From: Clytia hemisphaerica
Lineage: Eukaryota > Cnidaria > Hydrozoa > Leptothecata > Clytiidae
Direction: 5' to 3'
Assembly (NCBI GenBank): GCA_902728285.1
Contig: CACVBU010000198.1
Coordinates: forward strand, 62,001-126,000
DNA length: 64,000 nt
Part shown: piece by piece, positions 21,321-45,371 of the stretch
Layout: every line of letters begins with the position of its first letter
How positions within the stretch are numbered: the stretch's first letter is position 1
Program-made: the position numbers and the translations under genes
The notes under the pieces: generated by a model
Databases searched by the model: none
What the model saw: the letters and a program-made list of their open reading frames with translations, nothing else
Told to the model about the DNA's origin: nothing

Positions 21321-21560
21321 TACAAGATCTTGTAGAAAAACGCTCGCAAAGTAGATATATTTCACATTTTGGATTTGTTTGGCTTAGAGGAGGTTGCGGA
21401 TCATGTCTGATTTGCTTTTTCAGAAAAATTGTGAGAAATGAAAGGCGGAACGATTATGTCAGTAGGGAACTTTGCGATAGCTTGCTAACTCAACTAAATT
21501 TTCCTTGCAACTGTACCTAACTGACGTACGGGTCAGATCAGTGAGGGTAATTTTTCAGTC
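21321..21560. other. Short unique stretch left of the 18-kb element
   Basis: 240 bp between the TTAA element and the CCTTTT duplication of the giant element. Nothing recognisable. Confidence 0.4.
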
Positions 21561-21566
21561 CCTTTT

Positions 21567-21910
21567 TATGGAGTTAGATAGCTTACAAAATTCAAACACT
21601 TATTTCGATGGTCACTTTTACTTTTCGATGGTCAGTTTTATTTGTCGATGGTCAAATTCTATAAGTCAATGGTCGATAAATAGGATCGGTCGAAGGGGAA
21701 GTCAATGATCGAAAAAGAAGTCATTGATCGAAAAAAGAATCATTGATCGAAAAAAAGCAATGCGGTCAATAGTAAAGACAATGGCTGAACAAATTTTATT
21801 AAGGTTAGAAAAAATGATCTGTGGCATCTATCGACCGATCGACATGACCGCACGACATGCCCGCACGGGCATACCGCACGGTCAGGTCGTTCGCGCCTGT
21901 CTTTGACCCG
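21567..21910 (+). repeat. Left terminal inverted repeat of the 18-kb element, with subterminal repeat arrays
   Basis: After the unique tip come repeated 8-9 bp words TCGATGGTC (three copies plus variants, about 21606-21675), then TCAATGATCGAAAAA-type words (about 21701-21760), then GC-rich CCCGCACGACATG-type words (about 21840-21900). The right copy has the same order mirrored. Such arrays at transposon ends usually bind the transposase; that role is inferred. Confidence 0.75.
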
Positions 21911-22028
21911 CGGTCTGAGTTTCGGTAGTTGGAGTTTCTGGTCTGCAAAATTTGTTGAATTAAATTAAATTAAGAAATATTTTGTGTTTTTTAGAAAAAG
22001 TTCTCTCCCTCCAACAAAATGCTCAAGG

Positions 22029-23463
22029 ATGGATCGTTCTCCTAGAGAGCAGTTTTTTGATTTCATTATTGAAAGTACTAATCGAATACATAACTCTATT
22101 GAGGAAGAAGTCAACAATCTCGACTATTTTGCAAACCAACTCGTGGAACTTATTGTATGTGTTGATCAAGGAAGCACCATATACGAAATAAACCCCATAA
22201 TAGGTGAATGTTTAACGTCAGCATGGACAATGCTTCATAACACTATCTCACAACAAAATGCTGATTGCAGTACACCTGATGTAGAGCACACAGGCCGTGT
22301 TGGACGGCCAAAGATAATGATTTCGAGGGAACAATTACTATTTTTACTGACGTACGATTTCACATATGCTGACATTGCAAGGATATTTTGTGTCAATGCA
22401 CAAACGATCCGGCGTAGGATGAGAGAATTCAATATTGACGAAGATTTCAAGAGATATACAGACATTTCAGATGAAAACTTAGATTCAATTGTGCGTGAAA
22501 TCACCTTAAGCTTTCCTAGCACCGGGATAAGGAATATGAAAGGGTTTCTCGCATCCATGGACATACGGGTCACGTGGGAGAGAGTGAGATCTTCAATGTG
22601 GCGAACTGATCCTGAAGGTATTTTAAACAGATCTATTCATCGCCGTTTGATACATCGACGTGTTTATAGTGTGCCAGGAGCGTTAGCTCTCTGGCACATA
22701 GATGGGAACCACAAGTTAATCAGATGGGGACTAGTCATCCACGGAGGAATTGATGGATATTCTCGTAAAATCATGTATTTACATTGTAGTGAAAACAACT
22801 TAGCTGCTACAGTAAATTTGCTATTTCAGGAGGCAGTAGCAACTTTCGGGCTACCATCACGTGTGCGTGCGGATCAGGGTGTGGAAAATGTTGACGTTGC
22901 AAGATATATGCTAGCACATCCATTAAGAGGTCCTGACAGAAGAAGTTTCATTGCTGGTAAATCATGTCACAACCAGAGAATAGAACGTCTCTGGCGTGAC
23001 GTATTCAGCGCTTGCCTGTCAACCTATTACGCCGTTTTTTCATTACCTTGAAACATTTGATTTATTGGATATTTCAGACGATTTACATCTTCAAGTTTTA
23101 CACTTGGTCTTTATACCCCGAATCAATGAACACCTTCATGTGTTTCGAAATGGATGGGACAACCATTCGTTATCTAGCTCTAGAAATAAGTCGCCGAATC
23201 AGTTATGGATATTAGGGCAGCTAAATTATGAAGTAGAACAAGAAAACATAGACGTTGGACCAGATTTCGGGATAGATTATGAAAACTTTCTACCTTTAGA
23301 AGAAAATTCAGTCGAAGTTCACCCTAATCCGCTCAATCATGTCCTTAATGTGGACCAAACCGATGAATTGGTGAGAAACTTCGATGTATTAGGACGTTCC
23401 GAAAATTTTGGTGTGGATATTTATTGTAACGCGTTAGAGTATGCAAGGACATTAGTAGAGTAA
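22029..23463 (+). pseudogene. DDE integrase-core transposase, one frameshift
   Basis: The frame opens at ATG 22029 (340 codons to a stop at 23051) and continues in another frame from about 23041 to 23463. The break falls in a run of six T at 23035-23040; a one-base length change explains it. The N-terminal part ends in a helix-turn-helix ([19 protein letters not shown]). The integrase core has Asp225 (WHIDGNH), Asp282 (RADQGVEN) and Glu319 ([10 protein letters not shown]), a D-x56-D-x36-E arrangement, so the catalytic triad is complete upstream of the break. The C-terminal frame holds the family's usual LHLQVLHLVFIPRIN and FRNGW segments and an acidic tail. An acceptor-like TTTTTTAG at about 21987-21994 leaves room for a 5' UTR exon. 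The frameshift could be decay or an assembly error in a homopolymer. Confidence 0.78.
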
Positions 23464-24885
23464 TATTTTTAATGCACCCAGTTGTAACTAGACGCTTTCA
23501 TTACCACAAAAAAGCTTTAAAAGGGATAAACAGATGGCTTCAGACTTTATTCCCTATGAACCTCTAAATTTTTATGCTGAACTATTCTCCTAGCTTAGCC
23601 AGAGTTAAACTTTGAACTTTTCGACTTTTGCTTTCAAAAAACAAAAAAACAACAACAGCAAAAGAATTTTGACGCAAGGTCCACAAGAAATGTCTAAATT
23701 TCAGAAGAGCATATTGTTTGTTTGTTTGTTTGTTAGTCCAGTCAATTTCTTATAAAATTTGTGAGCTGGAAGAGCGTGGCGAGCCTTAGGGTTGGCTATC
23801 AAATGTTCTTGAGCTGTTCCTAAAATCTGGAATTACTTGTCTACTCTCTGTTCTCTAATAGACGTCCCCCCGCTAATTAATTTTCGCACTTCCAGGTCTT
23901 ATAAAATTTGTGAACTAGAACTGTCTAGGGTCATGGCCCAGAAGGCTCACAAGACACTGCGCACTTCCGAGTTTTTTTGTGACGACACTACGCACTTCAA
24001 AAAATATTTTAGAGACGCAAAAGTCCCCCTCAAAAGATAGCCTTTCTGGTCAGCAAAATAGATACCGAGTTGTAATAAATGAGTTAATGATAATAGCAAA
24101 GAGGCTCGGAAATCCAAAGTTATTTTTCTCGAGTTAAAAAAACCGAGTTACGAAAAAACCGAGTTATGACGTCATTTTTCGGAAATGTTGACGTCATTTT
24201 GTACCTTCTATATGACGTCATTCTCAATCTTGTAGGTCGTTTTTTCCCGTGACTTTAAAATCTCGAGTTATCTCTGATGGTATCTTAACTCATTTAAATT
24301 TTCGAATCATTTCTCGTTTTTTAACTCGGTTTCGTTTCTTTTAAATTTTCGAGTTATTTTCCTTCCTGTAGATTCTCAGATTCTCGAGTTATTTTGGCGT
24401 TCACAGCAGAATTTTCTCATTCTACCTTAGGGTAAGGTGTTTCACGTGTATTAAATTTCGCGATTCACTAAATTGGGTATTTGCAATAAAGCAAGAAAAT
24501 GACTAATTTTGCGTGAAACACAACGTACAATGGTATAAATCTATTTTACAGTCAAGAAATATCACTTAAAACCTTCAAAAATTCGATTGCCTTTTTATTT
24601 TATTTTAGGAATTTTGAAATTTTCGGCACATTTTGAAAATTTTTCCCATATATTTAATCTTGCGATTTTGTACGTTGTTGGAAGAAAAATTTGGCGGATG
24701 GCTCAAAAAGTTTTTTCAGAGGGAATTTAATTTGGCGGGTCAACAACAAAATTAATTTTGGCGGACTATGTGTTTCAAGGTTCAAATTCGGGGTGAAAAT
24801 GTTGAAAACACACCATTTGGGGCCTAAACAATGAAAAACTGCAAAAAAATATGAGAAAACTTTTCTTCCAATGAGGTATTCTTAA

Positions 24886-25298
24886 TAAGGGCTCTGACCA
24901 TAAAGAAAATATTAGTTTTGAAATTTTCTTGAAATACGTTTGTTTCTTGTTCCTGGCCATATCCAACAAAAGGGTTCATCATTAGACTGCATTTTGATCA
25001 ATTACCCGATGAGTTATTAGGATTTTAACGATAAGAAACTCACCATGAACCACTAAGTAACGTTGATTAAACGTTTATTACCCCTTATTCAAGTTTCAAA
25101 GGGAACTTCTTCGCTGTTACTTAGCTCCTCAAAGCTGAAGATATATTTCGTTGTGGTTCTTAAATTTTAAGACGGAAGAATATTTGACCTAACAGAAAAT
25201 GTGTAACATGTTATAGTTTTATTGGCTTCATCAAGCAGAAATTCACATATTGTATATACATTGTAAATGTGAAAAAATCACTATGGTCAGGGCCCTTA
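24886..25298. mobile_element. 413-bp TTAA-flanked MITE
   Basis: Inverted ends TAAGGGCTCTGACCATA and TATGGTCAGGGCCCTTA, with TTAA directly outside (24882-24885 and 25299-25302). Typical of piggyBac/Kolobok-type non-autonomous elements. No coding capacity. Confidence 0.7.
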
Positions 25299-25907
25299 TT
25301 AAAACAGTATTGAATTTCAAGAAATCTATCCTGAAAACTCGCGAATTAAGTACCCGCGAAAATTTGAAACACTAGAAAATATATACCAATAAGGCAAATA
25401 TTTTGCGAGAACAACACTTTCACGAAAGTTTCTTCCCCCAGAAAAGTACCTCTAAGTTACAAATTAGCACACAGGACTATTTTTATAGGTCGATGAAAAT
25501 TGGCTCAAAGATTCCCAATTATAAACTCAACTATATATCTTCTTATCTGGTATTTTAGGGCATTTCCGAGAGGAAAAAAAAGTGTCGTAAATTTTTCAAA
25601 ATTAAATATCAACTATCAAAATAATATAAATATGTTTGTTAAAATATCTCACAAGTAAAAGTTTAATCTAAATAAAAAATTTCGTTTTTCATAATTTGAC
25701 CATTCAAAAAACATGTAAGCTCACAGTTATAGACCCCCCTCTCACAAGTAAAAGTTTAATCTAAATAAAAAATTTCGTAAAAATATGTAAGCTCACTGTT
25801 TCAGACCCCTCTCATTCATCCTTGTAAAGCCTATAGCATAAAAATAATTTTTTCTACATGAAGACACCTCTTTTTTCCTAGAGCAGGCATCTCTTTTAAA
25901 TGGTCTA

Positions 25908-26017
25908 TACCTTATCGGGGAAAAAAATGTCGGACGAAAGTGACGAAAATTTTCCCCGACCGATTTGAGCCCTGCTTGGTGACAATATTTTTGACATTTT
26001 TTTTCCCCGATAAGGTA
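25908..26017. mobile_element. Short palindromic MITE
   Basis: TACCTTATCGGGGAAAAAAA and its reverse complement bound 110 bp just downstream of the HECT ligase stop codon, so it may lie in the 3' UTR of that gene. Confidence 0.55.
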
Positions 26018-26216
26018 TTCAAAATAAAAATAAAACCAATAACAAAAACGACAGGCGAATACATGCTTCGACATTTTCCCTGATACTTCTCTTTAAAAAG
26101 AAGATTAAAAAACCGAGGATAAAATCCGTTCGTTGGTTAAACAAAAGAAAAGCAACAAAATCAAAAAGGGTGACAGCCTCTTGTCCATCTGTCTTCATCA
26201 ATAACCAACATAACCA

Positions 26217-29200
26217 TTACCATCTCCCATAGCCACTCGCCTGTACATCAAGGACAGTGTCCATTCGTTTTTTGAAATCTTTCAAATCTTCGTAATCCAA
26301 GGGCAATGTGAGAGAGTTAAAGCATGTGTCAGGATCTGGATAATACTTTTTTCTTCCTTCAGTAAAAAATTTCACGTTAATTTTTGCTGGCAAAATAATA
26401 TATCCCGTAACGAATAACAGGAACTTCTTAACCAGGTCGTCATTATCTGAGGAAAAAGTAAATGAAAAAAATGATCATGTCCTTTCCTGGTAGCAGTACT
26501 TATTGGAAACTTACTAGGATTGAAAACAAACTTCGGGCAGATTTCAGAAATTACTTCTTTAAAACAAAAGGTATCGATTTAAAATGCCGTATTTCCCCTC
26601 ATAAGCACCGCACCGCAGCACTTATATAATTTTCATGAGTTCGAATTTCTGAAGTTTTTACCTTTTCTACGAACTCGATAGAGGCGGTTCTCGCTATGAA
26701 ATCTGGGTGTTCTATCGGGGGTAGTAACGTATGAGGAAAAATTAACGGATCTGTTGTGATGTAGAGTAAGTAAGTACAGTATATGGCCCCTCCCTAAAAC
26801 GGAGGCCAAAATTTAATCGAAAAAAATCGAAAAATTAACAAGCGGGGGTGGGGGGCGTTTATTTGGCACCTAAGAGTAGATATCGAAATGAAAATTTCAC
26901 CATATTTTTGAATTGTGATTTCGAATATGACAAGCATAAATTAATTTTTACTAATATACTAATGGTTGTTAGAATGGAGGTTTGTTGCACCTTGAATGGA
27001 GGTTTTGTTGAAAGGAGCTTATTGACTAAAGAGAAGTAAAAAACAGATACTATTGACATTTTCTCATTGGCTGAAAAATGTAATAGCTGATTGCAATGAA
27101 AGTTGTCAATTTTTTTCTGTATGATGTTCTGAAATTTAATAAAACCGATTCTTTACACAGTGACGTCATTATCAATATTATATCTAAAGAATTTATTTCT
27201 CCAAAATATTTATGGAATTCAGCTATGGAGTATGATGTCAAAACTTTATGACGAAAGCTCAAGTCAATTCGAAGTAATACGAGTTTGAAGTTATTCATCT
27301 TTTATTTTCTACACTGAATTAGGTATTTTTGCCGTTTCTGCTGATTCAGCAAAAATCTATTGATTTTCTGATGATTTTCCACGTCAAACTAGCCATTTTA
27401 GTGGTATTTTTGAGATTTCGACTTCTAGATTATTTGGTGGTTTTCCAAAAATTAATTAGCGGGGGGGGGCGTTGGAATAAGAATGCCTTGGGTGCAAAAT
27501 TTTCGAAAAATTAATTAGCGGGGGGGGGGGGTACGTTTATTAGCCACCCGAGAGTACAGGTCAGAAACCTAGTTCAATTGACGACCTCCGTTCTAGGGGC
27601 CACCTCCATTCTAGGAGCCATCATATACTATAATTAGCCCATTTCATTGAATTATTTTCACAACATGATTTTTTTCTACGTCACTGCAGTAATCAAATTT
27701 TTATTGTACTGTAAAGCACTCTTTTTGCGAATTGAGATAAGGCGGCATTTATTGGAGGAAATACGGCAAGGCCAAATGTAATTTTGGGCCTCTGTGTGAA
27801 TGTTAGTAAACGTGAAAAGTTCTAACTTTAAGGTGAGTGAATTATACGTACTAAGGTCTTCCTCCAAAAATTTCTTCAAATAGTTAAATGCAGTAATTTG
27901 TTTCTCCGTCAAGTTAGGGGGTGTAGACAAACAATTTATGATTTGTTCCTTAGAAAAACAAAAATCTTTGAGTTTCGGAAAAAGCTTTGACTGGAGAGAT
28001 CTGTTTTTGTAGACGAAATTAACAAGTTGAAAGTCTTCGTTCATTCCTCTCCTGAAATCGTCTAGTTCTTCGCGTCTTTTGGTTATCACCTCATAGAACA
28101 AAATTTCCTGGTACGCTTGATCCTTGGTTTTTGTACCCAACATTTTATTGACAAAACCAGCAGCATTTAGCAGTGATGAAATACCATCTTCCCCATTAAG
28201 ATCAGCAAAGTCTTCTTCCGTGCAAGCTTTCTTTATCTGAAAAAAATTGAAGTGATTAAATTAAATTCTTGCTACATTATTGGTAAGACTGAACTTTAGG
28301 ATTCAGGATTTCAACTTAAGGATCCTAAAGTTTTGGGTTAAAAGCATCAAAATTAAGAGATACCAATAATGATTATTCTTCAAAATAAGAGGTCTTCGCA
28401 CCGCCATGACAGTTGCAATGCTTGGACAAAACTCGTGTATTGATAGGACATACTAATTTCGAAAACAAATGCACAAAAATAAATCAGTAACCTCCCTATC
28501 AAATAAAAAACTCTCAATGCCTATTGCCTCTAAACAGCTCTAAATGCTCATCTCGATAAATCTTTTCTGAGCCTGTTTACATGCATCTCGGTTCGGGAGC
28601 GTACTGAGTTCATTTTAGCAATCTCATACGCGAAACTGCGTTTCGGGTTTCCCTCTGAGGCTGTACTGATCACGGTCATTTGCACCGAACCGAGATTGGA
28701 TTCCGAAAAGCCAAACTCAAACGGCTCCGTAGCCCGTAGGTCACTTAAGGCTTTTTGATAGACTGGATGACGCGATTAATTGGCCCAGTGTATATTGACA
28801 GCTTTTTGCTCTAGCTTGTTCGGCTTGTTGGCAAAATCCATCAATCGATCCAGGCCTTTCACAGGAAAAAATAAAATCTTGAAGTTCCTGCACCGCAATT
28901 GAGAAAATCGCTTGGTATGGAAATTGGAATCGATAGCGGTGCACTTTAAATTTTCTTTGCGTTAGAAATGCCAATTGCTCCTAGTCTACATTACTGAACT
29001 CAGCGTCATCAAAATCATCAAAAAGCAAAGTTCAGCCAAAAGAAGACTCTAGTCTAACCGCTCCGAGATCGATCCATATAAACGGCCTCTTAGTTCCAAA
29101 ATTTAGAAATCCCGAACCCTTAAAAGCTAGGGGATGCAGCTATGTATTAAAAAAGTAATATTGAATTGTACAGTCCAAGGAGAACCCAAAAATAAAAAAA

Positions 29201-32200
29201 GGAAAACTATCACTGGAACTTACACTTTCCAAAATAGATTGGGTTTCCGAGTCAGCCACATCTTTCGCTTCTACAAGTGCAATTGCTGCTGTTTTGGATC
29301 CAGACAAGATGTATTCTTGAATGCAAGGCGAAATACTCCATATTCCAATTTCCCCATGGAAGAAAGCCATTGCCACAAATTTCCCAGCATAATAAAAGAA
29401 ATCTGAAGCCAACAGATCAGTGTCATGTACTGGAACTTTACGGTCTTCACGGCCTTCAAACAACACAATGTTTTTTTCTCCGCTGAGAAAAGATTTAATC
29501 GTATGAAAAAAGTACTCCTTTCTCGGGCCGGTAGCGTCGATGCCATCTTCATTTTGAAATTTAACTTCTGGTGGAATAGAAATGTTTTTGATATCTCCAC
29601 GCTTGAACAAAGTCATTGTCGATAAAAGAATTGTATCACGGTTTATTTTAACGAGAACATGCCCTTTTTTCAAGTTCCTCCTTTTGAATGATTCCCACTT
29701 CAACTTTTGGTCTTTTATTTTCTTACCAACACCACTATCTGGTAGGCTGTCATGGTCACTGTTGCTGCTATCACTTTCAACGAGATCATTATTACCAGAA
29801 CCTAAACGTGTAAAAAGTTAAGATGTTAGAACAACAAGTTAAAACCTTCGTGCCACTGCTTATTTTTTATTGTCAGCAACATTGAATATAAAACGGTTTC
29901 AGCCAGTCCTTATAGTGCGTTCACTTGGATGTCTTTTTTACAAAACACTTTATTTTCGTTGTTTTTTATGATGAAAAGAAAAGGTTTGTACTTAGAAGTT
30001 GTTAACGATTATCCAAGTTAGAGTGAACGTACTATAACAACGGTCTTTAACCCTATTTACCCAAGGGGAGAGGGTAGAATCTATCTATCCAATCAAATTC
30101 AAATGTTCAGAGATGATAGATATTGACAATTTAATTCTAGAAATTTTAGAAAAAAAATTTATAAATGATGATGTCATTAGTTTTCGGAAATTTTACTCAT
30201 TTTCAGCATAGATTTTTATTTAACAGTAAATCTTGCTCAGAAATAAAAACCGGCAATTGTGTTAAAAAGCAATCTTTTACCTTTCAGAATCTGAAAACAG
30301 ATCCTAAATATCTTTTTCCGTTCGACCGTGAGGTTGTTTTTTGTAAACCATACTTTTTACCCTATTTTGCGACAGGTGGAAATTTTGTGATGACGTCATC
30401 ATACTTTGGATGATGTAATTAATTTTTTTCTTCTATGAATTTCCATTCATGATAGAGAAAATCTGTACCAATTTTTATGATCATAGCACTTCTGAATCAA
30501 AAAATATTGAGCGTGGTAGATTCTACCCTCCCCTTGGGGCTACAGAAGCAAAAAAAGCTTGGGGCTAATAGGGTTAAAGAATTGCATCTTTTTTATTTGA
30601 ATTTGCGCACTTTAAAAACCATTTTAAATTTTAAACGAACTTACTTGATGTAATTTAGTTATATAATAGATTCCTGAGATTGGAACCCACCTAGAAGAGT
30701 TAACCTCTTTTAGAGGGCAGAGAGTTTTTTACTTAAATTGATAGGAACAAAAATTTTAATTAATTACAAGACTTTCATTATTCTGAGACGGGTTTTCAAA
30801 ATATCTCAACATATCTCTGAGGATTTTAGTAACCCACGCTCCATCATCCCCGTCCCAGGAGCTAGAGGTGAAGCTACGTAAATATACACAAAATTTAGTA
30901 TTTTAACATCGAACTCATCCGTTCATCTTTCCCGATTACGATGATGAAAATTTTGGGAATATCATTATTTTAGGTTTTCTTGACCACATATAAAATTTTA
31001 AGTTTTGTTATTTTGGGCCCATCTGAAATATAAAAAATATATTATTACCTCCAGGAATATCTGTTTCCTCGAGAAGGTTTTTGTTACCGTGTTCCTGTAG
31101 AGAAGAAAAACACAAAATTATAAACTGACTTCCAGAGTCAGTACCAAAATCTCAACTAGAACACCATGAGGGATTTTCTTAAAATCCGAAATGTACAGAA
31201 GTTGAGCTAGGAATCTGGAAATGTCTGTATGTCTGTCTGTATTTGTCCCAAATACTTTAGGAGAGCCTGGTGCACACTGGGCCCAAATGGAAAAACTTTG
31301 GAAAAAGGAGAAGGAGAGGAACAAGACACTTCTTACACTTTTTGTATTGTAAAGGCTTTCAAAAAGCTGTAGGGTCACATTACATGAGTTAGACATATTG
31401 TAGACTTCAATTTTTAAAATTTAAACTTCTAAACCGCTAAGCGTCACACCAAAATTCCAGCATTTCTAGAATGGTTAGTGTCTGTAGTTTTCATATGGTT
31501 TGATATGTGACAATTAGCAGAGAGATATTTTGACATTTGTGGCTAATTTAAACAAATTCGTGATGAGAAGTTTGATGGAAAATTTGAGTTTTTTCTTGTT
31601 TTTAAACATTTATACATACTTTTGAGTAATTTCTCTTAAGAATATAATGTCTCTAAGGTTAACACACAAAAAACTGGTTTTAACCCTGAATTTAGATCAG
31701 AATGTTCAAAAATATCCATTTTTAACACTCAACTTTGGAGCCCCATAACTTGACTTCCAGATCAGATAGAGACCTGAAAATTTGGCATCTGATCAGAAAT
31801 TCATTCAAGATTACATTGATCATAATAAATAATAAAGCCAAATTTTAACTTTCGTGTGGAGACTTAAAGATGGTCAGATTTGGCTGAAATTTGGCACACT
31901 TCACAGGAAAAAATCGTCAAATCACACTCGTGTGAAAACTGATCTCCCACAGTGTGATTCGGTTCGTTTTTCACACGGGTGGGAAAAGGTAATTAACACC
32001 CAATGTGTTTGTCTCATGTCGAATTAATTATCAAACTAAACGCTCAATCTGCAATGACAATCTGACTTAATTCTTCTTAAATTTGAGGTGTTTTAGTCTG
32101 ATACTCAATTCAATATGGTGGAAACATTAAGGGTGTCATTTACCTTTTCACACCCGTGTGAAAAACGAACCGAATCCCACTGTGGGAAATCAGTTTTCAC

Positions 32201-35200
32201 ACAAGTGTGATTTAACGATTTTTTCCTGTGCTTATTCCTTGGGTGAATACTTGGTGGTAATTTCTTCATTTTATTTCTAAACATTTGATTTCTGGGCCTG
32301 GGGACGAGTTTTCACCAAAGTGTTGCAAAAAACTTTGGGGTCAGCCTGGAGACATAAAAATGGTCTGATTTGGCTGAAAATTTCATTAAGATTAGCTTAT
32401 AAATTTTACAATTGGGTCTACAAATTATCTACCGGGTGATCCACGAAAAAGTACCAGGGTTTCGGTGCAAAGTACGCTTGATATGATATTATTTTGTTGA
32501 AAAATTTTTCATCCCAAAGAGGATACTCAAACTTATATTTTGAGCCACCACCTCTTTACTTTTGACAAGGAGTTTTCGAGATATGGAGGTTTGAAGTTAA
32601 AAATCACTTTAAAAAATCATCAAAAAACGTCAAAAACTGGGTATCTAAATAAGCATTTTGTAACTCTTTCTTTGAAATTTTTTTTTCTAAAATTGCTGAA
32701 TTTTTTTCTAAAATTGTTCTTTGGTTTTTCACCCTATAAACCTTTTTTGAAAATTGTTTATAAAAAAGAAGCAATAAAATTACTAATTCGGCAACAAAAG
32801 TCATTGTCATAAAATGTTTATTTTCTTTGTTAAAAATGGTCAAATTTGAAGCCCTGTTTTTATTACGTTTTTTGATAACTTTTTAAGTGACTTTCAAACC
32901 TCTATATCTGGAGGACTACTTGTCAGAAATAAAAAAATTGACAGCTCAAAATTTAAGTTAATGTATCTATTTACGATGAAAAAGTAATTTTTGATAATAT
33001 TAATATCATATCAAGGGTACTTTTCACTGAAACCCTGGTTGTTTTTTTTCGTGGGTCACCCGGTAGATAATATATTGAAGTTGAGACCAGCGCGTCGTAA
33101 CGCACTATCGACTGTTATATATCAAACGACGAAAATTTCCGGCCTATTCTGCCCTTGGCCGTAACTTTTGTAAAATTCTTAATCTTGATTAGCTTTTTCA
33201 AATATACACACTTTTTAAAATAGGAACCAGTTTATTTTGGCTTAAGCTCAATTGTGCTTGATTTTTCAAAATTTTCTGGCTCAAAATATTCTTATGATGT
33301 TCTCAAAATCTGAAATTTTTTGCCCACTAATTTGTAACCCTGGTCAGTCCCATATCTGATATCAATACTCAAATTACATCCGTCTATTAAAGACCTGAGA
33401 GTATGGACGCAGACCCCTCCCCTGCTTAAATAGCGAACGTTTCACATTGCACCCACAAATCTGGGAATAAATTTTTCCTGGGGGGAGCTGACCCAGGACA
33501 CTATGGGGCCCAATCAAATCGATTTAATGATTACATTACAACCCTTTTAAAAAATGACTCACCAAATTGTTCATTTCCTTTAATATTTTCTCAACAGCTT
33601 CATTGATATGTATGGACCCAGAAAATACTGTGTTTAAATATTCCTTATCATGTTGGGGGAATAAAATTTGTAATTTTTGGATTGTGTCAGCAACGGATTC
33701 TTCTTTGTTTTCTTCAAATTCTAAAACCAAGGTCAAAAAGTATATCACATCACAGCCTTTTTTGAGAGAATGATTTATCTAGACAACAAATACAAAAAGT
33801 TCTGCTAACATGTTCCCTGTAAAACCCATCTATTTATAGTGTTGGTAAAGAGATCTTTTTGTTTCACTACTATACTGTAGTAAGTCTGGTCTTGTGAGAA
33901 TTAGGACCTATTACCCATGTTTTTAAACTCTACCATAAAAAGAATTAAGGCAAGAGCAACAGATATAGAAGGCAAGTGAAAGAAAATAATACTTTTAATT
34001 GGTAAATAATATATAGAATAAAATTGTACCAGTTGTTTTGCAGTTGCTTTTATGGTTTTGAAAAGAAATAAGTGGAACTTCTTTTTGACAGGTGTGGCAT
34101 TTGACTAATTGCACATCATGGTTTTGAAAATTATTGACATCTAGTGGGGTTTTGTCAAGATCAGAATTCAATGGAATTACATAGACAAGCGATGTTTTTG
34201 CCTCCTCCTTAATCTGCAAAACAGTGTAGCCGGATGATAATGCTAAAAGCGGTGTAAGCGGCCGCTCACCCACTCCCCCAACAACTGCTTTTGATAACAT
34301 AAATGCTCCATCTTGAGATTTCAGGCTGAAAAGAAAAAGATTTTCTCACGCTAGACTTGTTGGTTTAACAAGGAACAGTGAGAAAGTAATCACACAAATA
34401 GAGTCTAGTGCATTTTGAAGTTCATTTCAAATTAGCTGTCAGTAAAATTTGAAATGCTCATAACTTTTGATATACTTTGAACTAGATAGCAATTCTATGC
34501 TTGTTGAAAAGATAATTGTGATAGATTCGAAAAAAGTTTTAAAAATGAAGATGAACAATGAAAAAGGAAAAAAATCAACTCCTGGTAGAATTGTGCTATA
34601 ATGACAATTTTACAGGGATGATTCTAGAATCTTAGAGCATCATTACTGTGAAAAAACCTTTCAAAAATATTTGTTCGGTCAAAAGATATTGCATGAAGTC
34701 CTTAGCTAGTTGACTGTAAAAAAGGCTGTTTTTTGGTGTTTTTTTAGATTCAATCAGTGATGAACTAATTTGAAATAGACTTTAGCATCTTTGATTTATC
34801 TTATTTAAAAATTGAACAACACTAACTTTGGATAATGCTCTTCAAGGATATATCTCACATGCTCATGATCACCATTCTTGTCAGTGAAAACGACCCTTTT
34901 CTTGCCTAATCCTGCTAAGTTTAATTCTGTCAGGTCTTCTGCATTTGGAGTAGTTGGTGAATTAGTGCTTGCCAAACAGACAAAGTTGTGCGACCAAGGT
35001 GATGCCGGCTTTGCCTTTTTGGGAACAAATCTCTCATAAGGTTTTGATCTTTTTGGCAAAAACTTTTTTTGCATTTCTTTTCCTGATTTTGGTTTTGACA
35101 GACCAGGAAATTGTCGTCTGAATTCCATCATCGATGGTAAATCCAGCTGTCGGACAAAAGGGCTTTGGCCTGGGTTACTTCTGTTTGTGGTACTTTGAGA

Positions 35201-38200
35201 AGAAGAAGTTACTGCTTGTTGGACAAAAGGGCTTTGGCTTGGGTTACTTCTGTTTGTGGTACTTTGAGAAGAAGAAGTTACTGCTTGTTGGACAAAAGGG
35301 CTTTGGCTTGGGTTATTTCTGTTTGTGGTACTTTGAGAAGAAGAAGTTACTGCTTGTTGGACAAAAGGGCTTTGGCTTGGGTTACTTCTGTTTGTGGTAC
35401 TTTGAGAAGAAGTTCCTGAAAACAGTAATATGGTTACATATTAGAAAGTAAGAAAAATGAGGTGTGAACCCAAACAAATCAGGTACCCCCTAAATTTGTA
35501 AATTAGGGACATTTTTTATTTTAAGGTACCCCAAATTTTTGGGGGGTCCACTATTGATTGGGTAAAAAAAAATGTTCCAGTTATGAAAAGTTTCAAATTA
35601 CAGAAATCTGAATTGTGCGTGGAAAGTGTTTTATTACGATTTTCTAGGAAAACTTGAAAGTGACTGAAATTTTGGTATTTGAATTAGATATCAGTTTTTA
35701 TCCCAGTTTTCGAAATTTATACCTAAATTTTTTTTTGATGAAACTTTGGCTAACATTCAAACAGGGGCTTCCCAAGAAAAAAAGTTCAATGCACCTTTGA
35801 TAACCTTTTATTTTTGAGAAAGGGTGAGTGAAACACACAAATCAAAATAGGAGATTTTCTGTCGAAGCATAACAAAATATTAGTCTAATCGAAGAAATAC
35901 ACTCCAATTTTCAGAAAGAAAGCACTAGACCTAGTTAAATTAAGAGTAGAATCTAATTTACATCTTTTGTATAGGCATATGAAGGCTCAGATTTTAAGCA
36001 TAATTAGCAAGCCTGAAATATAGTTGCTAATGGAGTCTAAACTGGGAATATCTCAAACTTAACCACCCTTGTATAACTTTTTTTCATATAATTTATAGAT
36101 TTGATGTACTTATTACATCATGTTGTGTTTAAAAAAGAGTTTCAAAGTTTATACTTTTCGGCAAAATCTCAGACTGAGACTCAGCCCTGCACTACTGTTT
36201 CCCAAACCTTAGCTCACCTTAGATTAAATTATATATGATGTTAGAAAATTAATGACTCGTAAGCATAGCAAGCATATTCGTTAAGGTCTTAAGCATATCT
36301 GAGCCTGATCAAGGGACAGACACTTGCTTATAAAAAAAACATATATTCATGCCAAATAAAAATAATTAAGAAACTTTCTGTGGAAATGAGTAATTGTTTT
36401 TTTTGTGTTCTCTTCATACAGGGCCACCCTGCCAATCCCAATAAGCCCCAGGCATACCTTAAAAACTTAAGAATACTTGAAAATACTGGGTGCGCCAAAA
36501 ATAAGTACACGTTTTTTTTTACTAGAACACCTAAAATTTAGCTGAGCCTGGATGTGCTTATTTTTTTACTTTTAGCAATTTTCAGCCTGAAATGTTCTTA
36601 GATGCGTTCTTAAATTTTCCGACTACTCTAAATCAACAATATCATGCAAAATAAAGAGCACTTAAAATTGGTAAAATTTTGACAATATTTGACTCTCGAT
36701 TTAGAAAATCCATTCCTAAGTTTGTTTAAAACTGCTTGAAAAGAGGGAAAAATTGTAGTTCTTGTCATTTTTTCCCAAATTGAGGCTGAGCATGTTCTTA
36801 CGATGTTCTTAATTTTTCGACAAATTTCAGCCTCAATGTTCTTATAAACTGGGTTCTAATAAAAGAAAAAACGTGTATACCATTTCTTCGAGAGATTGTG
36901 GGCTTTTTAAAGGATGAGTATTTTTATACAATTTCTTTTTTATTATACAGTATAGAGGAAAGCCTAACTTCATATAACTTGGTATATAAAACATTAGGTC
37001 GATCAAAATTTATGATAAAAAACTGAAAATTTTGACCTACCCAAAATATCAAAATCAATTAAAATCAAAGATCAAAATTTGAATGTATGATCATCACTAA
37101 TATCAGAAGTCATTTGATAAAGTGGCTTTTTTTGTGTATTTTGACAAAATATTGATCTGCTAATTTTCTACGAGTCTGAAAATACAATGGGATATAATCA
37201 AATTGATTCTCCTGAATGAGTTCAATAAAAATTTCAAATACAGAAGCGACTTCATTTCATTTTCATAAAATCAAAATTTATTGAAGACGTTTCGGTGTCA
37301 TTCGACCACCATCATCAGTTTAAAAACATTGAAATGAAAATTTCTAATCTGAAAATGTTAACAAATTGTTTAAATACAAAAAAATGTACAAACGAGGATG
37401 GGATATGAAATAATCCATAGAAGAGGTAAAACTAAACTCAGGCAGTCGAAGTGTCAATAATAGTAGTATTTTGAGATTTGAAAATTCGATGATTTTCGGG
37501 TTTCAAGCTATTTGACAAGACTTTTCATATTTGCATGGAAATCTTTAGTTCCTTAACTTAAAGCTTTAGCAATCTTAGATAAGCCATTTTAAAGCTGCAA
37601 TTGAACAAAAAAGTTAATTCCAAATGCCATTCAACTGTTGAAAAAGTGATGAATAAAACGAAAATTTTGCTCCCTGTTTTTAACAGATTTGGATATTTTG
37701 GGTAGGTCAAAAATCTTTCAGTTTTTTTTTATTTTAAAGTTTTCTATACCAAAATTCAAGTTAGGGTTTCCTCCATACAATATAAAAAAAACAAATAAAA
37801 ATATTTATTCTGAAGCCAACAATCTCTGGGAAGACATGCATACTTATTTTCAGTCAATTGAAATGATTTTAAACAGTTTCAATAATACTACATCTGTAAT
37901 ACGTAATACACAGATTTCAAACATTCTAAAGGTTGTTGTAGGTAGCAGTTGTTGATTTCCTCACTAGGCGGCAATCACAAATATCTTCATTTCGTGTCCT
38001 CGTTGGGTCGAAAAAGTGAGTAGGTTGATCGGTCGGTCGGTCGGTCGGTCGGTCGGTCTTTGCCAATGAAGTAAAAGCCCGAAGGGCTAGAAGTCAATCT
38101 CCTTGGTAGGATTTGAAGCCAACAAATCCTACCAAAGTTGCGCGGCCTTGAGCGGTTCGCCTGGTTTTTTACACAAATGACAGATTGAAACTAAAACTTA

Positions 38201-39287
38201 GCGCAAAGTTTCGAAAAAAATATCAATCTTAAACAAAGGATTGCTAGATTCAATATGTCGTCAAAAATGTGGCGCATTTTTTTAAGGCTTCACTTTTTCT
38301 TGCCTGAGAAAGGTTAGAGATTGAACTCTAGCCCTTCGGGCTTTAAACTCAATGGTCTTTGCCGCCCTAGAGAAATTCTCCATTTTTTCTCTCAATCAAT
38401 TTTTTTTTTTTCATTTTTCATTCAATATTTTGAAAATTTTGAAAAACTTTCTCCTTTCGCCAAAAACCTTTCAGTTGTACGCTGAAGATCTTTGGCGTTA
38501 GCTACACGAAATCCATACTGGCCTCTACCTCAAGGGGTCCAGTTTAAAAAAAGTATAGTTTCATCACACTTTAATGGGGGGGGGGGTTTCACTGTTGGCG
38601 GAGGAGCGGAATCTGCCCTTTTTTCGGACGGAGTGGCGGAATTTGGGGAAGATTTAGACGGAATTAAGGAAACTGTGTTCTCTGACGGAGACGGAAAATT
38701 AGACAATTTTAGTGCGGAAAAACGGAATTTAGCAAAAAAATTTGCGGAATTTCGGAATTGGTAAAAGATATTCAAAATTTGCGGAATTTTCGACAAAAAA
38801 ATTGAATTTCAAAGCAATTTTCGGTGACGGAATTTTGGTTCAATTTAAGACGGTTTGACGGAAATTGGAGAAAAAATTGGCAGAGTTGCGGAATCGGTTA
38901 CCCCCTGAAACCCCCCCCTTTAATAGGGGGGTTTTCTATTTTCAAATTTTTCCACAGGCTTCCCACCCAAAAATTTGTCCTGTTCCCGACAAAATTGTAA
39001 CAATATTGAACAGCCTTTCCAATTTTTTGAAAAATTCAATTTTTTCACTTACAGCCAGGGTCAAAGAATTCTGGAGGTGTTTCTAAGGACCATAAACAGC
39101 CATAAAAGGTATCTCTGAGCTAGCTAAATATAAAAAATTATCTTATTCCCTTTTAAAATAAGTTGGTGTTACCTTCTTTATCTTTATTTGCTTCAATTGT
39201 TGCCCTCTGTAATAGGGCCATAGATCTTTGAATATAGTAGGAGCAGGATAGCTCATCTTTTGACGTACTCCCTTTGTCTTCATCCAT
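26217..39287 (-). CDS. G2E3-like HECT-type E3 ubiquitin ligase, 8 exons
   Basis: Exons in transcript order: 39287-39173, 35415-34827, 34325-34030, 33720-33563, 31094-31049, 29801-29224, 28236-27852, 26446-26217. All introns are GT-AG and every phase matches, giving 798 aa. Order: Ser/Asn-rich four-fold 23-aa repeat (exon 2), basic linker, a CxxC...HxxxC zinc-finger-like pattern (HTCQKEVPLISF, exon 3), a CUE-like ubiquitin-binding helix bundle (IQKLQILFPQHD, exon 4), then the HECT domain. That domain has GPRKEYFFHTI, YYAGKFVAMAFFHG and, near the end, PDTCFNSLTLP with the catalytic Cys that takes ubiquitin from an E2. It ends GYGRW. Closest relatives are the multicopy 'G2/M phase-specific E3-like' genes of fish and invertebrates. 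The start at 39287 is a choice; an in-frame ATG at 39392 would add 35 residues. Exon 1 is the least certain, but its phase fits exon 2. The whole gene lies between the terminal repeats of the 18-kb element. Confidence 0.85.
26773..27632. mobile_element. Inverted-repeat element in the last HECT-ligase intron
   Basis: AGTATATGGCCCCT near 26778 pairs imperfectly with AGGAGCCATCATATACT near 27615. Inside, G-runs (GCGGGGGTGGGGGGCG and two longer relatives at about 27461 and 27519) are repeated. Non-coding. Exact ends are uncertain. Confidence 0.45.
28567..29092. mobile_element. Possible inverted-repeat element in HECT-ligase intron
   Basis: GAGCCTGTTTACATGCATCTC at the left pairs imperfectly with the reverse complement of GAGATCGATCCATATAAACGGC at the right. 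The interior has further diverged CCGAGAT and CGGTTCGG words. Non-coding; ends approximate. Confidence 0.4.
30051..30573. mobile_element. piggyBac-type MITE, 523 bp, TTAA target
   Basis: Ends CCCTATT...AATAGGG are flanked by TTAA (30047-30050 and 30574-30577). Just inside, GGGGAGAGGGTAGAATCTA and TAGATTCTACCCTCCCC extend the inverted repeat. It lies in the intron between HECT-ligase exons at 29801 and 31049. No transposase. Confidence 0.75.
31902..32230. mobile_element. MITE with 80-bp inverted ends
   Basis: CACAGGAAAAAATCGT at the left and ACGATTTTTTCCTGTG at the right begin inverted repeats of roughly 80 bp, rich in TTCACACGGGTG palindromes. It is in the HECT-ligase intron 31095-33562. A 3-bp CTT on both sides may be the target duplication. 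Confidence 0.65.
32428..33067. mobile_element. Foldback element, 640 bp, TA target
   Basis: Ends TCTACCGGGTGA and TCACCCGGTAGA lie next to TA (32426-32427 and 33068-33069). Complementarity continues inward with gaps for some 250-300 bp per arm (for example GGTTTGAA at about 32588 against TTCAAACC at about 32895). Same HECT-ligase intron as the MITE at 31902. Confidence 0.65.
35149..35424 (-). repeat. In-frame 69-bp minisatellite, 4 copies (23-aa coding repeat)
   Basis: Units start at 35149, 35218, 35287 and 35356, exactly 69 bp apart and almost identical. Read on the - strand they encode four repeats of a Ser/Thr/Asn/Gln-rich 23-aa unit containing NRSNPSQSPFVQ in exon 2 of the HECT ligase. 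A multiple of 3 keeps the frame open. The last copy is truncated at the intron border. The + strand is also open through it, but only as a shadow. Confidence 0.9.
37270..37325 (-). ncRNA. Hammerhead-ribozyme-like core (partial)
   Basis: On the - strand, CTGATGA is followed by a GGTG...CACC stem and then GAAAC, the order and spacing of the hammerhead core. Such sequences are common in Penelope-like retroelements. I find no upstream strand that would close stem III with a cleavage triplet, so this is at best a remnant. Confidence 0.25.
38035..38057. repeat. (CGGT)n microsatellite
   Basis: About six uninterrupted tetranucleotide units at the left edge of a MITE in the first HECT-ligase intron. 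Confidence 0.8.
38070..38346. mobile_element. MITE, AGCCCGAAGGGCTAG family, copy 2
   Basis: AAAAGCCCGAAGGGCTAG near 38074 and CTAGCCCTTCGGGCTTT ending at about 38344 match the terminal core of the element at 14206-14505. It also has the inner GGTAGGATTT / AAATCCTACC palindrome. Intronic in the HECT ligase. Confidence 0.6.
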
Positions 39288-39446
39288 TACTTCTTTCTTG
39301 TCCCTCCTCCACAACAAACAACTGGATTTTCTTGCCTGATTTCCCCTTCCTTCCTTCCAAAAACAAACCACAACATGTGAGCAAGATGTCAAAAACCAAG
39401 ACCCGATTTAATTACCGAATATCGCCTTCTGTATAATTTACTGACT

Positions 39447-39797
39447 TTGATAGAAAAAGTTCGCGCGCCCAATTCCGCCTGTCGCGTGTCTTACCCGCGC
39501 GGGCATGTCGAGCGGGCATATCGCGCGGGCAAGTCGTGCGGGCAGGTCGATCGATCGTTGACTACCTCGACCATTGAGTTCTTTTGCGACAGCATTGTTT
39601 TATTTCGATCAATGACTCTTTTTTTTCCTTTTTTCAATCATCGACTCCTTTCTCGATCATTGACTTCCCCTTCGACCGATCCTATTTATCGACCATTGAC
39701 TTATAAAATTGACCATCGACAAACAAAACTGACCATCGAAAAGTAAAAGCGACCATCGAAATAAGTGTTTGAATTTTGTAAGCTATCTAACTCCATA
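39447..39797 (-). repeat. Right terminal inverted repeat of the 18-kb element
   Basis: Reverse complement of the left repeat. It reads, from outside inward, the unique tip, GACCATCGA words (about 39712-39760), TCGATCATTGACT words (about 39600-39665), then GCGCGGGCAT/GTCGTGCGGGCAGG words (about 39490-39550). The GC-rich part differs in copy number from the left end. Confidence 0.75.
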
Positions 39798-42738
39798 CCT
39801 TTTGATAACATTTTCATACTTTATGATAAAGACAAAAGACCCCGAGATACCCCGGCTCTTTTAAACCACAAACGAGAAAACCTTTTTATCGTTTTATACT
39901 CCTTCTCTTCATAAAAAATATCTCCAGATTATCTTTCAAGGATGAAGAGTGAACCGTCCCTATTTTTCATTTCTAAAAATGAACAGCATAAGTTTAAAGA
40001 AACAATTTTATTATGAAGCAAGATGGAGCACACTCATTGGATTTTAAATTTAGCACGAGTTGTTGCGATAATAAACAGACTGTACCTTTAAAAGGTTGGT
40101 GAGTTCAGTCAAAACACAGATTTGATCTGCAGCGTCACGCTTCACCTTGTCTTAATAGATGAGTCAAATTGGTAGTTTTTCTTAACTTCAGAAAAGAAAA
40201 TACACTATTATGGCACACAAATTGAGTGTTTTATTCCCTAGGAATAGGGCCCATAGAAATTCTTCAAACGGAGAAAAGTTTCATTCCATTTGTGATAAAA
40301 AAAGCTGGGCGATTTTATTCATTCATGCCAGCTGTAATTCTAAAATATTAAACGACTTACCCTTTTTTGCAAGACTTCATCGTTCCTGACACACACAGCA
40401 AACAAGCCAAGAATGGATCACTATTACTGGAAGTAAATATTTAATTTCTTTATCGCAAACTGTACTGTAGTGTCAAGTGTAATAAGCTTGGAATCGAATC
40501 TAAAACATTTCCTCTCCAACTCCTCCAGGTCTAAAGCAAATTTTGAGTATTTAGATCGAGTGAAACATTTGCATCAGTGCTATGGGTGTCATTAGAAGTA
40601 TTCACCCTCCCCAAAGACCCCAAAGATTTAGACTTTCTCAAAGTCTTTGCCTTAATTTATTCTCCAATCCACAACAAAATATCCAGCTAAATATTTTTGT
40701 CTAGCACTAGCAGCACAGCAGAACTTCAGCAACTGATTGCACTCGAGAAAAAAACACAATTTTACAGTAGTAGCTATTCTTCTATTGATAGATCCCATAT
40801 TTTGGATCAGCCAGGATAGATATATAACAAAAAAACTTTTTTAATCAGTTTGATCATCACGTCCCTATCTGGCAAGGTCTCCATATAAGGCTACATTTAG
40901 CCTATTTGTTCCTTATATGCAGTCGTTCCCCCCTATCTCACTTTATTTTTTTCACTCGAAATTCTTTTGTTTTGATTCGATTTCTGTGTTATTTTTCTTT
41001 CTTTCGTGACGTAATTGTGTTCTGCGTTTTAAAAACAAAATTCGATTGACTATTTTCGAACGTTTTGCAATGCAGCGCCTTCCGATTGGAAACCCCAACC
41101 TTGTCCTCAGAGGTTAATATTTTCTCTTTGAAAACTTGACCTCTGATACTCAGGGTAACAAATTAGCCTATCATAGGGTAATTAGACTATTTTATATGAT
41201 GCTATAATTAGGCGAAAATCTACAAAAGTGGCAATTGCTGATGGAATATCAAAAGTCATCTCTAGGTTTCAGTTCATGGTTTCACTGCCTAAAGCCAAAT
41301 ATAAAGATGTTTTTTTTCATCTGCTAACTAACCGATTATAGGCTACTTTTCCGATAATCAATCTCTTCTACCCTGAGTATCAGAGGTTAAGTTTTCTCTG
41401 AAGACCAATAATAGAAATTTTATCGCGCATGTGTAAATCTAATCACTGTAGAAAGAATCAAAGATGAAGAGCAAATATACCTTAATAATGTCTAGCAGAC
41501 TGTATCAGTATGCAGTTTACTTTTTATACGATTTCCCCAGAAACCTCCAAGTGTAATCGAAGTGAGTTTCTTTTAGAGGAAATCTTTTACATGATCCCCA
41601 AATGTATAATAGTAATTACTAAAGTATTAATTATGGAAATGTCACTTTTAATTGAATCGAAATAATAGACAGACTTTATGTTATGATTCTCTATCACTGA
41701 CTTTTTTTGATGATATATTTTAGTTGTGTTTTCAACGACAGGAATAAAAATATCAACTTTGAACTTCATCATCCAAGATCTTGGATGGTCGTCATGGTTA
41801 CTTTTGTCTGCGTTGATTGCGCGATGAACAGAATCTCGATTCGTCGGCACAGCGTCAATATATGATTTCGACCTGTGCTTTTCACGGTAAATCTCTTCCT
41901 CTTAAGTTGAATATCGCAAAAAATATTGTTTTCGAAAACCCGCCGCAAAGGTTCTTATTGGACAAGCGCTGAAATTTATTGCAATGTCACGTGACCTAGT
42001 AGAGGTAGGGTTTCCTACCTAACCTCTTGGGTAATTAGTTAGTAGTGACGGTATGCTTTTTTCGTTTGGTACTATAGTCTCACATGATAGACAGCTAGAT
42101 GCTTTTAGGCCTTGCACTTGGTCTATAGGCACTGCTATATGCGGTCACAAGTTTCACAAAAGATGTTCATCAATAGAGATTTCAAATAAAAGAATGTTTA
42201 AAACACAGCTGATTGGTTTAGGTTTTAAAACTCTCTATTGTTTCATTAAAACCTCAGTGCGCATGTGGTTTATCCGGAGAATTTCAATATTCAAAACAAA
42301 AGCAGTGCTCATAGCCCAAAGAGTAGGAATTTTATGCTCGAGTCGAAACGAAAGAAGGTATGACGTAGCCTATTGGTTTATTTGGCACCCAGATTGTGAA
42401 ATTTTCATCCGACACGCTAAAGCTCTGAAGGTCGGGAAAATTTTCATCATCCGGAAGGTTTAGATTACGGAATTTTGCAAGACCCCGTCAATGGTCAAGG
42501 ATTTAGTAGAGCTTTAGCGCATGCGCATGGGCGGCCGCCAATCCGCCATCGGAATATCAGATAACCTATTGGTATTCAGGCTAGTTTTTCCCGCGAAGAT
42601 TTTGCGCGGGAAAAATTGCCAACAAAACAAACGGTCGTGGCTTCTTCGTAAAGACGAAAGACAGATCTGGACTTATTTCGTACTTTCCAGTCTCTTGTTC
42701 GTAGTTTTTCTGACTTTCTGGTTCTATGTGAGTTAATC

Positions 42739-44983: not shown

Positions 44984-45371
44984 AAGTAAGTAATTTATGT
45001 ATAGTATATATACTATTTTTGAATGAAGTTAATGAGTTTTATTTCAAAACTAATATAGTTTCACGCCGTGGAGACGATCATCAGTTGAAAATAAAATTAA
45101 AAAAAAACTATAGTTCGTTTTGAATGTTTACGAAGAACAATGTACTGGCTTCTTTTGACAACAATTGACGTCAGTCTTTCGAATCGTGTTGTTTTAGCGT
45201 GAACTTGTTCACGTGGCGGCATTTCGAAATCAGTTCGTTTCTGGAGTTCAACAGCTTGTCAGGCTGGTTGAATGTTGCAATTTCAAACTTTTCACTGAGA
45301 CAAAGTGAACATTTTACCGAGGCACGGTTGAAGGGCGGACAACGACGGATTGTTTTCCAAGTAATCTTTGG

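Follow-up and report, generated by a model that had tools for sequence, protein, structure and literature searches.

The 64,000-nucleotide stretch of the Clytia hemisphaerica genome analyzed here (contig CACVBU010000198.1, positions 62,001 to 126,000 of the forward strand; hereafter the window) holds an 18-kb element bounded by inverted repeats, with a gene for a DDE integrase next to its left end and an eight-exon gene for a HECT ubiquitin ligase starting close to its right end (Table 1). We found that the left tip, TATGGAGTTAG, begins at 21567 and that its complement terminates at 39797, which bears out the mirrored ends reported in a preliminary description of this DNA; the same 6 bp, CCTTTT, lie directly outside both ends, exactly as described there, and constitute a target site duplication (TSD). 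The terminal inverted repeats (TIRs) align over 211 columns with 89% identity, rising to 97% in the outermost 92 bp. Inward of about 210 bp the similarity is patchy and confined to shorter segments, e.g., 21835-21869 with 39494-39528 (83%); thus, the inverted repeat is real, but the 330-350 bp initially ascribed to it was somewhat generous. Words of the TCGATGGTC type occur 39, 59, 79, 100, and 136 bases from the tip in the left TIR, and their mirrored counterparts 39, 59, 79, 99, and 135 bases from the tip in the right TIR, with two extra words at 221 and 237, just internal to the latter. It is plausible that these words form a candidate transposase-binding array.

Table 1. Features of the element and its borders; positions are those of the window.
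Feature	Position	Strand	Remark
Whole transposon	21567..39797	.	18,231 bp; host site is a dispersed repeat
TSD, left copy	21561..21566	.	CCTTTT
TSD, right copy	39798..39803	.	CCTTTT
Left TIR	21567..21767	+	first bases TATGG
Right TIR	39588..39797	-	last bases CCATA
DDE integrase/transposase	22029..23039	+	first 337 codons
Integrase, C-terminal part	23040..23460	+	different frame after frameshift
HECT gene, exon 1	39173..39287	-	presumed start codon
HECT gene, exon 2	34827..35415	-	about four 69-bp (23-aa) tandem units
HECT gene, exon 3	34030..34325	-	N-terminal module; recurs close to other integrases
HECT gene, exon 4	33563..33720	-	weakly CUE-like (Pfam E 0.13, below cut-off)
HECT gene, exon 5	31049..31094	-	
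HECT gene, exon 6	29224..29801	-	HECT N-lobe
HECT gene, exon 7	27852..28236	-	
HECT gene, exon 8	26217..26446	-	C-lobe, DTCFNSL with catalytic cysteine, stop codon

The integrase matches Pfam rva_4 with an E value of 4.2e-54, and its C-terminal part, read in the other frame, does so with an E value of 7e-17; these matches confirm the DDE integrase that had been placed on the plus strand beside the left end. A sub-cutoff Pfam match to rve accompanies rva_4, and a zinc-binding integrase N-terminal domain is absent from the five Pfam families matching at E up to 0.1. Based on motifs, we take D225 (22701), D282 (22872), and E319 (22983), with D-36-E spacing, to be the catalytic triad.

The HECT gene specifies 798 aa, and all seven of its introns have GT-AG borders and matching phases. 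Its presumed start codon at 39287 lies about 0.5 kb inward of the right tip. The protein matches the Pfam HECT family (PF00632; E 7.7e-11) over model positions 11-298 of 306, i.e., over both lobes, so that the gene announced for the minus strand near the right end was recovered as such. Among PDB sequences the HECT domain matches Itch (E 2.6e-5) and WWP1 (E 2.9e-5), and its catalytic cysteine, in DTCFNSLTLP, is aligned to that in HTCFNRLDLP of Itch. With E values up to 1 allowed, the Pfam matches of the 798-aa protein comprise HECT and one sub-cutoff Hit1_C match, with no PHD fingers; since G2E3 proper carries N-terminal PHD fingers, the protein falls outside G2E3 proper. The tandem repeat in exon 2 (35148-35412) has a 69-bp period and is translated into a 23-aa unit, present about four times. 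Two further exon candidates, 30902-30759 (mostly within a stretch absent from the second copy described below) and 28980-28551, were dropped because the exons flanking them join in phase without them.

Copies of the element were sought in the whole source genome (417 Mb in 951 contigs), in which the window copy is C145. As a query for empty sites we used the two 200-bp flanks joined around a single CCTTTT. It returned 44 match rows, 35 of which span the junction with 75-98% identity; the other nine comprise the two flanks at the window and seven partial matches. Five of the 35 junction-spanning loci were read at the base level, and each has one CCTTTT. Therefore, the 18-kb element is inserted in a dispersed repeat (window flanks 21367-21566 and 39798-40003), other copies of which are without it, and the empty sites whose search had been proposed do exist.

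Searches with the left and the right end identified the same loci, with six matches each. Besides the two ends in the window itself, they comprise C139, where only the left end is present, C295 with both ends, and C527 with a related one. Starting at the tip, the C139 copy can be aligned with the window across the integrase and then HECT exons 8 to 3, introns included and exon 3 covered in part, in blocks of 97-100% identity, broken by insertions private to one or the other copy; its integrase is open over 497 codons, and outside TATGG its left flank is unrelated to that of the window. The locus C295:203581-204477 is an 897-bp element with TATGG..CCATA termini and the TSD TTAAAA, the halves of which match both window ends and extend inside the element to 22035 and 39363. 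As it matches the element interior, we read it as an internal-deletion derivative of the window family; it is the one small independent element with the same ends that was found, an arrangement that the preliminary description had regarded as a possible refutation. The end search proposed there thus yielded a further locus with integrase and HECT gene, C139, of which the right end and TSD are missing, and a second insertion with a TSD of its own that appears internally deleted.

Three stretches of the window are not in C139 (31902-32230, 30788-30943, and 23982-24577). The first of these constitutes a small element with inverted-repeat arms of 139 bp, which implies that elements nest within the transposon. 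In turn, insertions of about 1.3 kb (83093-84362) and 1.0 kb (90664-91708) are private to C139 (L040 and L041).

A compact family with the same tail-to-tail layout, more distant from the window, is represented by eight end-to-end copies that are 98-100% identical across the compared part. Its inverted ends are known from a 22-base end pattern, which occurs at 118 places (57 forward, 61 reverse) compared with two for a reversed-pattern control, and the mirrored end was located for all eight copies. Seven of them begin with TATGGAAGCC and have TATGG..CCATA termini; the eighth, C232, begins with GTAGGAAGCC and has an altered left tip. Six copies measure 7,087-7,114 bp, and the other two 8,517 and 8,577 bp. 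The eight flanks are distinct, and perfect 6-bp TSDs, all different (TGGAGG, CTTACT, AAAAAT, CATAAC, ACTTAT, CCATCG, and GCCTTG), border every copy except C232, which has none. Between its ends the C624 copy encodes a 431-aa integrase (rva_4, E 8.9e-37) and a HECT C-lobe (E 2.4e-10), and the other seven align to it across the integrase/HECT part; among the listed matches, Pfam HECT is present in seven of the eight (not C75) and rva_4 in six (not C232 and C290). Together with the empty sites and the different left flank of C139, the TSDs of this family uphold the earlier proposal that the ligase travels with the element. Position 7142 of L073, considered as the right border of compact copies, was rejected, being merely the point at which C624 and C75 diverge from the other six. 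Several listed matches among the 118 are arranged in inverted pairs with a close spacing of about 0.1-1.6 kb, which suggests short non-autonomous elements using the compact-family ends. Beside the compact element of C624, a 456-codon open frame (C624:510501-511868, L073) lies in a repeat with 98-99% identical copies on C662, C735, C832, and C748.

Another family, formed by C508 and C566, starts with TATGGCGCGCC, with TATGG as its left tip. Its two members share 99% identity across 15 kb, a stretch that includes matches to both genes; its right end was looked for and not found. The layout at C617 is again tail-to-tail. Its integrase is 71% identical to that of the window in the core and 35% in the N-terminal part, and the N-terminal modules of its HECT gene are 42-47% identical; no TIR was detected within the stretch examined.

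To assess the pairing of the two genes genome-wide we used 15 matches to one HECT exon, 119 to Pfam HECT, 119 to the integrase, and 150 to Pfam rva_4, with 129 of the 190 candidates scored for Pfam HECT, 119 of 466 for the integrase, and 150 of 596 for rva_4, so that these three lists are lower bounds. The matches, which for HECT and the integrase are exon-wise, cluster into at least 95 HECT and at least 162 integrase loci. We found that 37 of the 95 listed HECT loci are no more than 15 kb from an integrase locus, with 1.1 expected; the binomial P for this excess is nominal and its independence overstated, because copies of one family are counted repeatedly (five compact-family loci are among the 37 pairs). 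Counted from the other side, a HECT locus is found within 15 kb of 39 of the 162 listed integrase loci. In 23 of the 37 pairs the HECT locus is downstream on the opposite strand, i.e., tail-to-tail as in the window. Proximity to an integrase characterizes 35 of the 73 single-hit HECT loci and two of the 22 loci with at least two hits, both of these being the window-family copies (none of the 20 others); the multi-hit loci, we assume, should include the ordinary HECT genes of the host. Relatives were also sought in viral contigs. Two motif scans yielded none and three stretches; all three entered the tblastn comparison, in which only L001 gave a match, a weak one (E 0.03), and a protein scan confirmed none of four pattern stretches.

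The coding parts of both genes are conserved between the two window-family copies. C145 and C139 differ at 3 of 1431 aligned bases in the integrase, 6 of 1614 in the HECT gene (the comparison covers exon 3, in part, to exon 8, with one extra codon in C139), and 65 of 8355 in non-coding sequence, i.e., coding divergence amounts to 0.30% against 0.78% in non-coding sequence. The one-sided P for lower coding divergence is 0.007 for the integrase, 0.045 for HECT, and 0.002 for both combined. The two genes also seem to share their history. The exon-3 module is found at nine places in the genome; apart from the window it stands within about 17 kb of integrases at C139, C617, C899, C187, and C168, and these integrases rank second and fourth to seventh in similarity to the window integrase among the matches listed. 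Module and integrase identities at these five loci are 97/100, 50/72, 37/56, 31/52, and 34/50%, so that the module identity declines with that of the integrase (Spearman 0.9, n=5). At the three other module places, C156, C764, and C468, no integrase is listed within 15 kb.

With its ends, TSD, empty sites, independent copies, co-location of two genes, and coding conservation, the window element is in our judgment almost certainly a two-gene cut-and-paste DNA transposon that carries its own HECT gene, and this confidence extends to the element and the HECT gene together, though not to the role of the ligase. The HECT ligase appears to be a recurring component of such transposons in this genome: it is a second gene in several diverged families and does not represent a one-off capture. 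Mobile two-gene units of this type thus belong to more than one family, some of them recent. Recognition of the inverted ends by the DDE integrase, probably via the mirrored TCGATGGTC arrays, would lead to cutting and joining there and to insertion of the element with a stagger of 6 bp. The HECT gene, convergent to the integrase gene, would have a promoter of its own close to the right end, and its product, a predicted enzyme judging by its sequence, would tag a protein. In this manner the ligase may aid transposition, most likely if a host silencing or repair factor is tagged and less likely through control of the transposase.

Several observations weigh against this interpretation. We found just two HECT-bearing copies of the window family, neither fully intact: a single-base frameshift near 23.04 kb, which the preliminary description does not mention and which may represent decay or a homopolymer sequencing error, divides the integrase of the window copy, and the C139 copy is without its right part, with an assembly gap 1 kb further on. 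No HECT was detected within 15 kb at 123 of the 162 listed integrase loci, a listed integrase is missing at that distance from 58 of the 95 HECT loci, including 38 single-hit ones, and for most of the 37 pairs only coordinates, and no ends, are known. The layout varies as well, the 14 pairs that are not tail-to-tail having HECT downstream on the same strand (seven), upstream on the same strand (six), or upstream on the opposite strand (one). C635, whose integrase ranks third in similarity (61%), is listed with no HECT and no module, and at C168 the module (80170, plus strand) and the HECT match (93366, minus strand) cannot belong to one gene. Lastly, the HECT N-lobe of C617 is only 25% identical to that of the window, compared with 71% for the integrase core, and constraint on HECT considered separately is borderline (P 0.045).

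Some of these observations would also be expected if HECT were a neutral passenger, captured without benefit to the element. The ligase is undetected near most of the listed integrase loci, constraint on HECT between the two copies is borderline, and the C617 copy has a stop in its exon-2-like part. We nevertheless consider a neutral passenger rather unlikely, as the pairing recurs across very different families with a preference for the tail-to-tail layout, the eight-exon frame of the window is open with its catalytic cysteine present, and the N-terminal module tracks the integrase at five loci.

Equally improbable in our estimation is that the ligase acts on the element's own transposase rather than on the host, as a form of self-control braking copy number. 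The close linkage of the two genes and their parallel divergence at five loci would agree with such a role, as would the analogy with RAG1, a protein that itself includes a RING ligase domain. That the window family has few copies is compatible with a brake yet not specific to it, and for the compact family the number is at least eight.

Segmental duplication instead of transposition, as the origin of C139 and the compact copies, could account for their high identity (about 98% for C139, 98-100% for the compact copies), but it is very improbable given that homology begins at the element tip, that the flanks differ, and that seven of the eight compact copies have perfect and different TSDs. Still less credible is a host HECT gene flanked by chance by two small elements that have similar ends and were inserted separately, since, even though one small element with such ends exists (C295), it contains bits of the element interior, the identical 6 bp stand outside both ends, 35 loci have joined flanks with no 18-kb insert, and the same integrase and HECT gene recur at a second locus.

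As for known systems, large gene-bearing mobile elements include Polinton/Maverick, which has DNA polymerase B and capsid genes, Teratorn, and Starship. No gene set resembling theirs was recognized in the open frames of the window between 20 and 41 kb, where no search aimed at these genes was made. The transposase of RAG-like (RAGL) transposons is not known to be related to the window integrase, and RAG2L is not a HECT ligase. What RAGL transposons have in common with the window element is two convergent genes per element (PMC7204232). Helitrons and Helentrons that have VTD or OTU deubiquitinase domains likewise encode an enzyme of the ubiquitin system, which was suggested to aid transposition and has in some cases been domesticated; in contrast to the window element, they are rolling-circle transposons, and the deubiquitinase is inside the Helitron frame and not a separate gene as the ligase is here (PMC9741609).

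The closest resemblance is to the IS3EU and GingerRoot elements. IS3EU elements are described as having TA..TA termini and TSDs of usually 6 bp, and GingerRoot elements as having 6-bp TSDs and mostly TA..TA ends (PMC10045372). Fungal IS3EU elements have TAYGG..CCRTA ends and TIRs of more than 30 bp, and carry TET/JBP and alpha-kinase genes, the latter oriented opposite to the transposase gene (PMC12730594). With its TATGG..CCATA termini, 6-bp TSD, and TIRs of about 210 bp, the window element fits the IS3EU/GingerRoot superfamily by structural features, from which it differs in its length of 18 kb, its introns, and, as far as the searched text of the two papers goes, the HECT gene (PMC10045372, PMC12730594). 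The DDE transposases of this superfamily are related to IS3 and integrases and have no HHCC domain upstream; the window integrase may be of this type. The TET/JBP-bearing fungal elements share with it a second enzyme gene within the TIRs, so that second-gene cargo is not unprecedented in the IS3EU superfamily; yet their hosts are fungi and their cargo is a dioxygenase and an alpha-kinase instead of an E3 ligase (PMC12730594). The string "hect" has no occurrence in the searched text of PMC10045372, PMC12730594, and PMC9741609, and a term search of the available text of PMC12314368 and PMC10027918 gave no "HECT" either. Among the literature matches listed, with Repbase and subscription papers outside the search, there is no HECT gene in an IS3EU/GingerRoot element.

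For cut-and-paste elements, the transposase alone is usually considered sufficient. Should the HECT ligase be a recurring mobile E3 ligase, transposons may exploit host protein degradation, alongside the TET/JBP and deubiquitinase cases, and HECT genes annotated in multiple copies in genomes may belong to transposons; the ligase and its target would offer a testable entry to how DNA transposons evade host control. A broader and tentative proposal, which we hold to be possible though not probable, is that HECT is an inherited second gene of an entire branch within the IS3EU/GingerRoot transposons, kept for removing or reprogramming a host restriction factor. The rapid change of the HECT domain against the conserved integrase would then be the mark of an arms race, and G2E3-like HECT genes, of which many are annotated in animals, might largely be such transposons or genes derived from them.

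Outside the element, the window contains a 659-codon open frame on the plus strand (45309-47288), a putative hAT-type transposase judging by its appearance. On the same strand, an Rfam tRNA match (9181-9252, 33.5 bits), for which ARAGORN makes no call, is perhaps a pseudogene.

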